This document shows, piece by piece, positions 2,827 to 11,705 of a stretch of 21,496 bases of DNA. Within the stretch, counting starts at the first letter, position 1, and each line of letters begins with the position of its first letter. The notes below the pieces were generated by a model. The model had not been told where the DNA came from. It did no database searches and was given only the letters and a program-made list of their open reading frames with translations. The stretch lies in IMG/VR virus record IMGVR_UViG_3300009604_003287, positions 1-21,496 of that record; one strand, written 5' to 3'. The stretch is from a virus. The position numbers and the translations under genes were made by a program.

Positions 2827-5061
2827 TTATTGCACAGGACCGCGTGGACCGCGTTTTTCCAGTGCACTCTGGCGTGCTTGGAGTGCCTGAGCCAGAGCTT
2901 CTGGAGCTTCATCTGCGATCTTTGAACTTTCCTTGAACTGACCCATCGCCATATCAATGGCTTCTGCGGCAGCTTTGGCTGCTGCCTGTTGACTGGCCTG
3001 AGCCACAGCTCCCTGAATCATGGTGTTCTGCATGCCCTGTTCACGTTTTTCACTGGCTTTGACCATGATTTCACGGCATTTATTCCAGAACTCAGCAAAT
3101 CCCTGCTGAATCTGAGGACTCGCCCCCAAATACTCTGTCGTAGCCATGGATGCTTCCAATTCATCCATAATCACCTTGAGATTCCAGAACGGCATGGGAA
3201 TGTGAGGCGGAAGAGGTTCTCCAACCCATAGTTTCTCTACAAGGGATTTTGCCAATTTCCTGTAGCGAATCTCGGAATCTTCCCTTCCTGCGTCCCCCAT
3301 ACTCAAGTCAGCAGCGATTTTCTCTTTATCAATCCGCCCTGTTCTCTCGTCCATGTACAACACTGCCAGCGGTGACTGGAGGTGCTCCCGAATCCTGGCT
3401 TCTCTCAGTGCCCTCAATTCCGGGATCAGACTCCCTCGTTCGACTGTAATGGAGTAATCTGTCCCCGATTTCAGGATTTCAGAGTTCTGAAAGATAAACA
3501 CTTCATCTTTCATGTTTCTATCTGTGTAATGCAGGGTTCGATAGGTTGGATAGAACTGTTTGACCCGATTGATCCGCATTTCCTTGGTTTTTCCCATCTG
3601 TTTTCCAAGGTGCTGGTATAGCATGCCCCATTGCGTATCAATAATCTCCTGAAGCATCGGCACGGCCATAGGGCCTCTCATCTGGCCAGGAAACTTCTGG
3701 TCCTGCATCAAATCAGCCCCACCAGCAATCTGCTGCATCAATTTCATGGTCAAGTCCACTGACTGCATGAACCAGGCAGGTAATTGGGGCGGATCTCTCC
3801 TCTGGACCATCTTGATCCCAGCTTCATTCAAGCCGTTCTCAATCGGGGCAGGATAATCAGCAGGAATATCTTCCCGTTTCAATCCAGGTCCCAGTAGCTC
3901 ATCACCATAAATCGACGCATTCGCCTGTTCCCCAAGCTGACTAATTCTCTTATTGAGGAATCGCTGCGGGGCAATCAAATCACTGACGTAATCATTGCTC
4001 CAGAAACTCATAGTCGTTGGTCCCCAGTGGTAATCCACCAAGGGGATTTCCTCATAGGGATTGTCTCCATCATGGAGAATCTCTTCACCAGGAATAAAGC
4101 AGGAATATTTCCCTCTGGGGTTTTTGGCAGACATAGGCTGGAAGCGTTCCACGACCACCGCCAAATCCGGGTCATTCATGGTCCGAGTCCCCTGTACCCT
4201 TGGAATCAAGTCCTGTAAATGCACCGCCCCAGTTGGATCGCCAAATTGCTTGATGTCAGTACTGAGAATCCTGACTTCCTGGGCATCCTTGATATTTTCA
4301 ATGGTTTTATCGTTGACATCGTAATTGGCTTCAATCCACCCCAATGTTCTGATTTTGGCGATATAGACCGCCTGATCAGGACTCAAATCATCAACAGCCC
4401 TGACAGAGGAATCAATAAACACCTGCAAGGGACTCAGGATCTCACTCCCGATATCTCCAGTCAGTGTCATCTCTTCGACTACCTCAAACTGCTCTTTGGG
4501 TGCTCCCTGAGAGATTGCCATCTGTCTCATGGTTTCCGGGACCTGTTCCCCCGATTGGGTATCAGTCCACATCAATTCCCCGGATTCTTCATCAAACAGG
4601 GGCATAGGTTCCATGCAGGCATCTTTTTCCCAGGGGATGTATTCAAAGGCCACACCCCCAATGGACATCCACCACAACAGTTCCCATGTCCGGGATCCCT
4701 GATCGAGTTTCTCATCCAACGCCCGAACCAGCTTATCGACAACCTGGGCATTCCCGAGACTCTTCGGATCCTGCTTGTCAGCTCTGGCTTTGAAGATGGG
4801 GGCAATACTGGTCAGCCTCCCGATCATCTTATGCAGCATCTGTGCAGCGAGATTAAATACCAGATGCAGCTTATTGGGGTCTCTTCTCCGGGTAAACAGC
4901 ATTCGGTTTTGAGTTCCCACCCAATGCTCACCAGAAATGAATGAAAGGTTTGTCAGGATCCGTAATTCTACTGACCCGACATTCCTGGCCTTCTGCGCCC
5001 GAAGTCGATTGTAGTCTTCGGTGTAGTCAGCTAAATTTTCGGCTTCTTTTTTCTTTGCCAT
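2827..5061 (-). CDS. Portal protein, P22-type, 744 aa
   Basis: The portal is the twelve-subunit ring at the head vertex through which DNA is pumped. The length is close to that of the P22 portal (about 725 aa). The order of features also fits: an N-terminal helical, Lys-rich lead-in, then a stretch with a Trp-containing motif near residue 47 (FISGEHW), a mixed alpha/beta core, and a long Ala/Gln-rich helical C-terminus (about 670-744) that would form the barrel extending into the capsid. It sits directly after the terminase genes and before the scaffold, the usual order. The ATG at 5061 directly abuts a TAG stop in another frame, with GGGAGCG upstream as a modest ribosome binding site. The assignment is from length, order and composition. 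Confidence 0.85.
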   Translation of the reverse strand: MAKKKEAENLADYTEDYNRLRAQKARNVGSVELRILTNLSFISGEHWVGTQNRMLFTRRRDPNKLHLVFNLAAQMLHKMIGRLTSIAPIFKARADKQDPKSLGNAQVVDKLVRALDEKLDQGSRTWELLWWMSIGGVAFEYIPWEKDACMEPMPLFDEESGELMWTDTQSGEQVPETMRQMAISQGAPKEQFEVVEEMTLTGDIGSEILSPLQVFIDSSVRAVDDLSPDQAVYIAKIRTLGWIEANYDVNDKTIENIKDAQEVRILSTDIKQFGDPTGAVHLQDLIPRVQGTRTMNDPDLAVVVERFQPMSAKNPRGKYSCFIPGEEILHDGDNPYEEIPLVDYHWGPTTMSFWSNDYVSDLIAPQRFLNKRISQLGEQANASIYGDELLGPGLKREDIPADYPAPIENGLNEAGIKMVQRRDPPQLPAWFMQSVDLTMKLMQQIAGGADLMQDQKFPGQMRGPMAVPMLQEIIDTQWGMLYQHLGKQMGKTKEMRINRVKQFYPTYRTLHYTDRNMKDEVFIFQNSEILKSGTDYSITVERGSLIPELRALREARIREHLQSPLAVLYMDERTGRIDKEKIAADLSMGDAGREDSEIRYRKLAKSLVEKLWVGEPLPPHIPMPFWNLKVIMDELEASMATTEYLGASPQIQQGFAEFWNKCREIMVKASEKREQGMQNTMIQGAVAQASQQAAAKAAAEAIDMAMGQFKESSKIADEAPEALAQALQARQSALEKRGPRGPVQ

Positions 5062-8885: not shown

Positions 8886-8985
8886 GGTATTTAACAGCAC
8901 CCTAGCCGACTGGCCCCTGCTTATTATTGGGGGGCTGGTCGGGCTTCTTATCTATGCTTTATTTATCTATCAGAGGGAGGACTAG
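8878..8985 (+). CDS. Single-pass membrane miniprotein, 35 aa
   Basis: A GTG at 8878 opens a 35-codon frame. Residues about 14-30 (LLIIGGLVGLLIYALFI) form one transmembrane helix, preceded by a short acidic N-terminus and followed by a polar tail (YQRED). The frame starts inside the previous gene's last codons and its TAG shares a base with the next gene's GTG. It fills what would otherwise be a gap of 99 bp. Small phage membrane proteins of this kind act in lysis, lysis inhibition or superinfection exclusion; which applies is unknown. Confidence 0.55.
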   Translation: MVEVFNSTLADWPLLIIGGLVGLLIYALFIYQRED

Positions 8986-9176
8986 TGTCTAGACCAGATT
9001 CAAAACTCCCCAAGCATGCAAGCTATGACGCGGACCGAGCTGCTTGGGCTGAGCTGCCGCAAGTGCAGAAAATAGAACACAAGGATTCAACGGGTAAAAT
9101 CTGTGAAGTCGAGCTGGTCGAACGTGGCCCCCGGTATCTCGCGTGGGTCCAGAGTCGAGTGAGACGTTCTGGTTAA
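8985..9176 (+). CDS. Small basic hypothetical protein, 63 aa
   Basis: A GTG at 8985 is preceded by GAGGGAGG at four bases and overlaps the preceding TAG by one base. The protein is basic and polar, ending in RYLAWVQSRVRRSG, with two Trp and no Cys pairs or membrane segment. The family is not recognised. It is the last of the five coupled small genes; after its stop comes the structured non-coding element. Confidence 0.55.
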   Translation: MSRPDSKLPKHASYDADRAAWAELPQVQKIEHKDSTGKICEVELVERGPRYLAWVQSRVRRSG

Positions 9177-9215
9177 GTGTCAGGTTCCAAGAGTTGAAAC
9201 GTCTAAGTATTAGCG

Positions 9216-9319
9216 GGTCGGGTAGTGGGCAGCGTGACAACTGGAAACATGCAAATGTCACCATATCGAAGTGTTCATCGTGCGAGCACCTCTGTCCCAC
9301 TGTCCCGGCCTTTTTTTTT
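9216..9319 (+). ncRNA. Multibranched RNA element ending in a nine-T tract
   Basis: The plus strand can fold into nested stems. P1 pairs 9216-9222 (GGTCGGG) with 9304-9310 (CCCGGCC, one G-U). P2 pairs 9225-9232 (GTGGGCAG) with 9292-9300 (CTGTCCCAC, one bulged T). Inside the junction, P3 pairs 9234-9239 (GTGACA) with 9256-9261 (TGTCAC), and P4 pairs 9271-9276 (GTGTTC) with 9284-9289 (GAGCAC, one G-U). P1 is followed immediately by nine T's (9311-9319). It could be an elaborate intrinsic terminator for the small-gene operon, a small RNA with its own terminator, or a leader that controls read-through into the MoxR operon. Confidence 0.5.
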
Positions 9320-9334
9320 GTATCGACCTGGAGG

Positions 9335-9390
9335 TGGAAGTCGTATCTCTCGACTTCCAACTCATTTTGGAAGTCATTTTTGACTTCCAA
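9335..9390. repeat. Two tandem inverted repeats of GACTTCCAA
   Basis: Four half-sites alternate in orientation: TGGAAGTC (9335-9342), GACTTCCAA (9352-9360), TTGGAAGTC (9367-9375) and GACTTCCAA (9382-9390). The first pair has a 9-base centre, the second a 6-base centre. They end six bases before the -10 box of the MoxR operon promoter. The arrangement is typical of a dimeric regulator bound twice; if transcribed from upstream they would also form hairpins. Confidence 0.65.
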
Positions 9391-9392
9391 GC

Positions 9393-9401
9393 TGCTACAA
9401 T
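9393..9401 (+). promoter_or_regulatory. Extended -10 promoter of the MoxR operon
   Basis: TGCTACAAT at 9393-9401 combines a TG extension with a near-consensus -10 hexamer (TACAAT). No good -35 lies 16-18 bp upstream; that position is filled by the inverted repeats, consistent with a promoter controlled by a bound regulator. The first ATG is 36 bp downstream. Confidence 0.45.
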
Positions 9402-9436
9402 ACGCACCGGCCCGTGGCGGGTCAGAAAGGTAGAAC

Positions 9437-10528
9437 ATGGATAAATTACGAACAGATACGTTAACGTGGCTCGACCGCGATGAACCTATTTTTACGTTGT
9501 TAGATGCAGCGGTAGACAAAGAACCGGGGGAACCAAGTCCATTAGGGGTCATTGCACTCTGTGGAAGTTCTCAAGCTGGCAAGACTCGACTGGTCAATAC
9601 GTGGGCGGCTCGACACGGGGCCGACGTTCTCAGTATCCAAGCACAACTGGACCAACCGGAAGATATTTCTGGCTTTCCCTTTAGGACTGGCCAAGGCGTG
9701 AAATATACGCACCCGAATATTATTCCACCGGGCTTTATTGACCGAATCGGGGATTATGTGATTTTTCTCGACGAGTTAGACAAAGCGCAAGAATCAGTCT
9801 TGTCTTGTTTACTTACGTTGCTGGCTGAGCGACGGATTCGCTATACGAAGGTTAGGCCTCTGTCGATTGTGGTTGCCTGTAATCCTCCCAAGCGGCCATT
9901 GCCGAATCCTCTAATGGCAAGGTTATTGTGGGTTCCGTATCCACCTAAAGATTACGAAGTTCTCCAGCGAGAATCACTGGCTGAAGTAAGGCATTTACTG
10001 GAAGATATCTACCCGCCAGTTGAAGAAAACGTGCCTGAGTTAGATATCTGGTTTGGTGCAGGGCACCGGTTGGCCAGCTGGTATCAAACCCCCGAATTCT
10101 GGAAACCAGCGGTCCAGAGAATGGTGCTCTACGGTTCGTTCCCTGCCCAGAAAGCTGAGGCCATCGCACATAGGTTAGAAGAGCACGCTATCGTCGATGG
10201 CGTGGCGTGGGCAAGAGCTGCTGATGCGAGCCAAGTCCGTAGTTCGTTGGTTCCGGTTTTAATGAGTTCAACCATTCCAGTTCGCAATGACATTATGCGG
10301 ATTCTCCAGCAGAAAGCTACGCAGGACCAGACGGGAGAAATTGCACGAGCGTTGACGACTTGGTGTCAATCTCCAGCTGCCCAAGCTATCACGGACGCTA
10401 CGGGCCGGTTGGGTGGATTGACGATTGAAGAAATGCGAGAGCAAGCCGATAAGGAAATGGCTCGACTTGATAAAAAATTCAGAAAGGAAGAGAAAGATGC
10501 CCAAAAAGAAAATAACCCGGAGGTTTAA
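9437..10528 (+). CDS. MoxR-type AAA+ ATPase, 363 aa
   Basis: This AAA+ protein resembles the MoxR/CobS branch, ring-shaped ATPases that remodel partner proteins carrying von Willebrand A domains. Walker A is GSSQAGKT (residues 43-50), Walker B is VIFLDELDKA (108-117, Asp112/Glu113), sensor 1 is VVACNPP (Asn149), and NPLMARL (Arg162) fits the arginine-finger region. The C-terminal part is helical with a charged Lys/Glu tail (about 335-363). The ATG follows AAAGG. The gene overlaps the next one, a VWA protein, by 32 bp, the classic MoxR-VWA pairing. In phage genomes such pairs are often labelled CobS/CobT cobalt chelatase; nothing here suggests cobalamin synthesis. Substrate unknown. Confidence 0.85.
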   Translation: MDKLRTDTLTWLDRDEPIFTLLDAAVDKEPGEPSPLGVIALCGSSQAGKTRLVNTWAARHGADVLSIQAQLDQPEDISGFPFRTGQGVKYTHPNIIPPGFIDRIGDYVIFLDELDKAQESVLSCLLTLLAERRIRYTKVRPLSIVVACNPPKRPLPNPLMARLLWVPYPPKDYEVLQRESLAEVRHLLEDIYPPVEENVPELDIWFGAGHRLASWYQTPEFWKPAVQRMVLYGSFPAQKAEAIAHRLEEHAIVDGVAWARAADASQVRSSLVPVLMSSTIPVRNDIMRILQQKATQDQTGEIARALTTWCQSPAAQAITDATGRLGGLTIEEMREQADKEMARLDKKFRKEEKDAQKENNPEV

Positions 10529-11705
10529 GGGTCTAAGTCGTATGTCGGCCAAGCTTCTAGCACTAACCGATACGGTTGTGGAAACAGACGAAGTTGATAC
10601 GTGTGCGGTTGCAGTCAAGGATGGACGGGTCGAGCTTTTGCTCGGTCCTCTGTTCAGGAATTGCAAGGATGAAAATGCCAGAGAGCACATGTTACGTCAC
10701 GAGTGTTTTCATGTAATGCTCGACCACCAGAAACGCCAAGAAGAGCGTAATGGGGAACTGTGGAATCAAGTTACGGATTGTGCAATTCACGCGGGTGGTG
10801 CGGTAGATTGGCAATTGATTGATAAAGCCTGTGACATTGCAACATGCACATACGAGCGACTTGGGATTCCAGCAATGCCTCCAGAATTGGCGTATGACTG
10901 GTTGTCTAAAGAAAAAGGTCCGGGACCGGGACCAGACGGTAGTGGAGAGGGTCCAGCTGGCCAGCCCGGTAAAGGCGGTTGTGGGCGAGGCAAAGTGGAG
11001 TCAGATACGGACGAGAAAAGTAAGTCACGCGAGGCCGAAGTCATAGCCGAAGTGCTCCAGTCGTGGGAGGCTGAAGTTGAAGAAACAGGGTTTGACGGAG
11101 GCTTTACGGACCTTAGTAATGGGGTAGCGAATACGGACCGGAGCGGCGTAGGCCGTGGGAGCGGTCGAGAGCGGCCAGCAATATACAAAGTTCCAGCGTG
11201 GGTTGGCGAAGTGCTGGATAGGCTCCTAGAGAGGCATAACGCGAGAATAGACCGGGACCGAACATGGACGCGGGAACATCGCTACATTGAGTCTGGACTG
11301 CTGCCGGGACAAAAGCGTTCTAAGGGTTGGGAGGGTGTCTGGTGCATTGACGCGAGCGGTTCTATCGACCATGAAGCCGTAAACCAGATGATGAACGGAG
11401 CCTATCAGACACCAGAACTGGCCGGTTCAACGGTCGCAGTGTTCGACGATGGAATGCTCCACGATGAACTTATTCCTGTCCACGATTTAGGGGCGATTCA
11501 GGAAGCAATTAGTTCCGGCGGTGGCGGCACGAGCATCACAAAAGCGGGGAAGCAAATTGACAAGTTGACAGGAATGCAAACCCCAAAAGTGTGGTTGACG
11601 GATGCCTATTCGAGTGACGGAATACCCCTAAAATCTGACCAAGAATTATGGGTGCTATTTCAATACAATGGCGTTACCGTTGTAGACTATCCACGAGGGA
11701 GGTAA
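10497..11705 (+). CDS. VWA-domain protein with HExxH metallopeptidase motif, 402 aa
   Basis: The N-terminal region carries HECFH at residues 68-72, a zinc-metallopeptidase HExxH signature. The C-terminal region (about 275-402) is VWA-like, with a DASGS MIDAS motif (285-289), a Gly-rich GGGGTS loop (about 341-346) and TDAYSSDG near 368. Between them is a Gly/Pro-rich linker (about 140-170) and an acidic helical region. This order matches the DUF2201-type putative metallopeptidase plus VWA-like architecture (family knowledge). The ATG at 10497 is chosen because AGGAAG precedes it; an upstream in-frame ATG at 10425 would add 24 residues and overlap the ATPase gene by 104 bp. The ATPase next door probably remodels or activates it. 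Confidence 0.82.
   Translation: MPKKKITRRFKGLSRMSAKLLALTDTVVETDEVDTCAVAVKDGRVELLLGPLFRNCKDENAREHMLRHECFHVMLDHQKRQEERNGELWNQVTDCAIHAGGAVDWQLIDKACDIATCTYERLGIPAMPPELAYDWLSKEKGPGPGPDGSGEGPAGQPGKGGCGRGKVESDTDEKSKSREAEVIAEVLQSWEAEVEETGFDGGFTDLSNGVANTDRSGVGRGSGRERPAIYKVPAWVGEVLDRLLERHNARIDRDRTWTREHRYIESGLLPGQKRSKGWEGVWCIDASGSIDHEAVNQMMNGAYQTPELAGSTVAVFDDGMLHDELIPVHDLGAIQEAISSGGGGTSITKAGKQIDKLTGMQTPKVWLTDAYSSDGIPLKSDQELWVLFQYNGVTVVDYPRGR

Follow-up and report, generated by a model that had tools for sequence, protein, structure and literature searches.

The window, the whole stretch of 21,496 nucleotides (nt) analysed here, belongs to an IMG/VR virus record (Table 1); to judge by its company, the virus is probably marine. 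In its left part, structural genes (encoding the major head protein, a P22-like portal, and the large terminase) lie on the minus strand; the plus strand carries a series of small genes, followed by a MoxR-like ATPase gene and then by a gene for a VWA protein. The stretch 9437-11705 encodes the MoxR-like ATPase and a DUF2201/VWA protein, with PHROGs 1297 and 1314 as their matches; weak matches of the ATPase occur in N4-like phages (e.g., G7C and JWAlpha). The head genes of this virus differ from those of GenBank phages, among which the terminase has no match. The last gene of the small-gene operon encodes 63 amino acids, is 100% conserved in two relatives (L002 and L003), and yielded no match in comparisons with Pfam and PHROG. 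Its stop codon (9174-9176) lies 39 nt 5' of the closing stem of the element described below, and 260 nt separate the gene from the MoxR start (9437). On the minus strand, a sigma-70-type consensus promoter (2789-2760, TTGACA-18-TATAAT, 12 of 12 positions) is located upstream of the gene 1829-2653, adjoining the major head protein gene; promoter scans of this kind return overall about as many sites as shuffled sequences, and read with that reservation the site suggests transcription of this virus by the host polymerase.

Within the gap before the MoxR gene, the plus strand is predicted to fold at 9216-9310 into a three-way junction of 95 nt, composed of a 17-bp closing stem and two 6-bp arms. 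The closing stem is GC-rich, its pairs being interrupted by one-base bulges at 9303 and 9295, and the inner gap of 59 nt that it encloses contains both hairpins. The outer pair (9216-9310) directly adjoins a run of nine T's, with 0 nt between stem and T-run; this run is the longest of the window, and no other T-run on the plus strand exceeds seven. Pair probability is above 0.9 for most pairs of the fold, and kissing between the loops of the two arms would, as judged by eye, involve at most four pairs. Refolding returned stems of 7, 7+3, 6, and 6 pairs, and the coordinates and the four-stem architecture closing on T9, as described in the first-pass annotation, are correct.

Table 1. Position of the branched element and of neighbouring features, in window coordinates
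Feature	Position	Strand	Remark
Record IMGVR_UViG_3300009604_003287	1-21,496		Virus, IMG/VR
63-aa gene	8985-9176	+	GTG start; last of upstream small-gene operon; from ORF list
Alternative fold	9178-9239	+	Terminator 5' arm pairs with sequence just 3' of stop codon
Closing stem, 5' arm	9216-9232	+	17 pairs with 9292-9310
Stem 1	9216-9222/9304-9310	+	7 pairs, one G-U
Stem 2	9223-9229/9296-9302 plus 9230-9232/9292-9294	+	7+3 pairs
Arm A hairpin	9234-9261	+	9234-9239/9256-9261, 6 pairs plus 2 inner pairs
Arm B hairpin	9271-9289	+	9271-9276/9284-9289, 6 pairs
Closing stem, 3' arm	9292-9310	+	Abuts T-run; 19-nt duplex, -29.1 kcal/mol
T9 tract	9311-9319	+	U-tract of putative terminator; T8 in two near-identical contigs
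Two adjacent palindromes	9335-9391		TGGAAGTCG..CGACTTCCA and TTGGAAGTCA..TGACTTCCAA; one shared arm sequence
Extended -10-like box TGCTACAAT	9393-9401	+	Hexamer 9396-9401; candidate MoxR-operon promoter
MoxR-like AAA ATPase gene	9437-10528	+	Opens downstream operon; Pfam AAA_5 above cut-off; phrog_1297

The stability of this fold is reflected in the comparison with shuffled sequences that the first-pass annotation had proposed: shuffling gives a mean minimum free energy (MFE) of -27.1 +/- 3.1 kcal/mol, whereas 9216-9310 itself has -42.5 kcal/mol (z = -5.0), and none of 200 shuffles is as low. The helix formed by the 19 nt immediately 5' of the T-run has -29.1 kcal/mol, versus -12.9 +/- 3.0 in its shuffled counterparts; none of 5000 dinucleotide shuffles is as good, and the best of them reaches -26.9 kcal/mol. 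In a looser test, which admits any structure closing on the T-run up to a distance of 134 nt, 22 of 1000 shuffles (2.2%) do as well, so the excess resides in the compact helix and not in overall stability. By local MFE taken alone the element has equals and superiors elsewhere in the window, several of which are coding; what stands out is the fold combined with the T-run. As a yardstick, all runs of at least six T's in 200 kb of E. coli K-12, 50 kb of T4, lambda, and the fetched relatives were scanned for helices ending on such a run with an inner span of more than 40 nt. Long-span helices of this class are common but weaker than the window element: the best values are -25.7 in E. coli, -27.0 in lambda, and -24.1 in the relatives, compared with -31.1 for the window element, which is stronger than any long-span helix in the E. 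coli K-12 and lambda sequences scanned (about 250 kb together) or in the fetched relatives.

Another feature of the gap is the promoter-like box TGCTACAAT, which lies 76 nt 3' of the T-run and 35 nt 5' of the MoxR start and constitutes the sole extended -10 match of its kind on both strands of the window. Between the terminator and this box, GGAAGTC/GACTTCC occurs four times with alternating orientation, forming the two palindromes, which look like candidate operators of the MoxR promoter. The paired palindrome form was not seen elsewhere in the window nor in other lineages, and palindromes are absent from the shorter terminator-to-promoter gaps of the two relatives considered below.

Relatives were sought among viral contigs by means of the MoxR and VWA proteins, an exact 17-base and 21-base pattern, and major capsid protein (MCP)/terminase searches. 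The element itself was found in only three nearly identical contigs, the window and two others (L008 and L009) that are 99.8% identical to it; the stem is identical and the region differs only by T8 in place of T9. As these sole carriers are identical over the stem, there is no variation in which covariation could be counted. The 17-base matches in L006 and L007 do not extend into the structure and were taken as chance. No further MoxR lineage was found in the full records of 29 relatives, the scan of cellular genomes gave weak ATPase matches only, and DNA comparison with phage GenBank records gave no match for the region. The related viruses L024 (about 2994-3107), L083 (about 8959-9098), and L066 (about 1065-1204) carry a similar structured stretch rich in GTGTTCGCG that may be a shared RNA element or a terminator; these stretches, which apparently recur across contigs, lie opposite in strand to the locus and end with a short T-run.

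Further MoxR lineages are represented by L004 (42% identity to the window MoxR), L087 (37%), and L098/L100 (30%). In L087 and L098 small genes also precede MoxR, one of them resembling a short membrane protein (by eye), and directly 5' of MoxR there is a single hairpin, of 12 bp followed by T8 in L087 and of 16 bp followed by T7 in L098. In each case a TAYAAT box comes after the terminator, 35 nt (window), 35 nt (L087), and 33 nt (L098) 5' of the MoxR start. The order of small-gene operon, terminator, TAYAAT box, and MoxR-like gene is therefore a terminator-then-promoter boundary kept across MoxR lineages only 30-37% identical to that of the window. The terminators of L087 and L098 differ in being single hairpins, whereas that of the window is branched and is separated from its box by two palindromes, the distance from T-run to -10 box being 76 nt in the window versus 24 nt in L087 and 12 nt in L098. 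In L004, with its closer MoxR, a terminator directly before MoxR was not found; one has to go about 0.9 kb upstream for the nearest candidate, which has four T's only. The view in the first-pass annotation that ordinary terminators are single hairpins thus holds for L087 and L098 at this spot, but does not hold as the sign of a different device: plain hairpins at the same spot in relatives make the window's structure a branched version of the same boundary. Judging from these sequences, the terminator appears to be branched only in the window's lineage, its job being ordinary and its shape unusual.

The element is most probably an intrinsic (Rho-independent) terminator of the upstream small-gene operon, insulating the small-gene transcript from a separately promoted MoxR/VWA operon. 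A stable GC-rich stem that ends within a few nt of a U-tract is expected of such a terminator, and here the distance is 0 nt; T9 (T8 in two relatives) compares with an expected minimum of about 6-8 for the transcribed strand; and the element lies after the stop codon at 9174-9176 and before the box at 9396-9401 and MoxR at 9437. Like known intrinsic terminators, it places a GC-rich stem abutting T's on the transcribed strand at the end of an operon, before a promoter-like box. During transcription, the two inner hairpins would form first, bringing the distant arms together and shortening the effective loop; the GC-rich 17-bp stem could then close completely, as far as the start of the U9 tract, and its closure might extract the weak rU:dA hybrid from the host RNA polymerase. 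Actual termination, its efficiency, and this order of folding are inferred.

The element differs from the single short-loop hairpin sought by terminator finders in its 59-nt inner gap and 95-nt span. Under the limits quoted for TransTermHP (loop of 3-13 nt, stem-loop of at most 59 nt; PMC12207403), a 95-nt three-way junction would not be called. The single-hairpin limit is one of the search program, not a mechanistic requirement; nevertheless, with 95 nt against a maximum of 59 nt, efficient termination is not to be assumed. No branched or multibranched terminator was described in the titles and abstracts searched, which cover open-access literature only and are weak evidence of absence. The element is accordingly filed as an unusual variant of the intrinsic terminator. 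The first-pass annotation had suggested a small RNA or a leader whose folding governs termination ahead of the MoxR operon. A part in termination has good support, whereas the leader reading lacks it in that form: TGCTACAAT lies 3' of the T-run, its equivalents in two lineages precede MoxR by 35 and 33 nt, and an element upstream of the promoter-like box of MoxR is not its leader. With the box downstream and kept in two distant lineages, the simplest reading is that the upstream transcript has its 3' end in the element.

That 9216-9319 is a chance structure or a piece of coding sequence is hardly credible. Two frames do cross it in the window, one of 96 aa (9143-9433, plus strand) and one of 187 aa (8989-9552, minus strand), but the translations of both are without support, and T8 in L008 and L009, contigs 99.8% identical to the window, breaks both. 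Since both frames are shifted by T8 versus T9, the element is not coding. Chance is opposed by a helix strength outside 5000 shuffles, and the syntenic terminators of two lineages argue against both chance and coding. A function on the minus strand is also unlikely, because read that way the homopolymer precedes the structure instead of coming after it. It seems unlikely, too, that the upstream mRNA leaves its 3' end behind as a small regulatory RNA or as a cap against nucleases, with the branched body as the functional RNA and U9 as a chaperone-binding tail, although such a role would be compatible with a terminator. The branched body is very stable, the U-tail long, and a candidate 3' end follows the stop codon; yet a promoter-like site just 5' of the element was looked for and not found, the element is confined to three nearly identical contigs, and relatives have plain hairpins. 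Rfam gave no match at gathering score, and weak, implausible ones only at E values up to 10; no curated covariance model of a riboswitch or cis-regulatory RNA matched at gathering score.

Regulated termination is suggested by the alternative fold 9178-9239 (MFE -20.6 kcal/mol, z = -3.2; 4 of 1000 shuffles as good), which shares the 5' arm with the terminator, so that the two are mutually exclusive, and which is predicted as the fold of lowest free energy for transcripts reaching as far as about 9300. The element might then be an attenuator, in which 9178-9197 pairs with the 5' arm of the stem, so that the terminator forms late or not at all; the arm would be released by a ribosome that ends the 63-aa gene and thereby occupies about 9178-9190, translation would favour termination, and read-through into the MoxR operon would be coupled to translation of the 63-aa gene. 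As in trp/tna-type attenuators, the predicted upstream fold would make the 5' arm of the terminator inaccessible. The downstream operon here seems, in contrast, separately promoted, with no need for read-through control since the MoxR operon appears to own a promoter box, and no equivalent of the alternative fold is apparent in the folds of L087 and L098. Moreover, this fold was noticed after the fact, and completion of the 3' arm tips the balance to the terminator state by more than 10 kcal/mol (-34.8 at 9305 versus -45.3 at 9310), all of which renders attenuation quite improbable. It is more doubtful still that a virus-specific switch operates, in which translation of the 63-aa gene would set the choice between 9178-9239 and 9216-9310, and the palindromes at 9335-9391 would act as a second layer at the MoxR promoter.

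If the putative intrinsic terminator is efficient, it would represent a natural three-way-junction intrinsic terminator of a kind missed by finders with loop or length limits, and the syntenic plain hairpins would provide a ready comparison of branched and simple forms at the same boundary; otherwise the element is an ordinary operon boundary.
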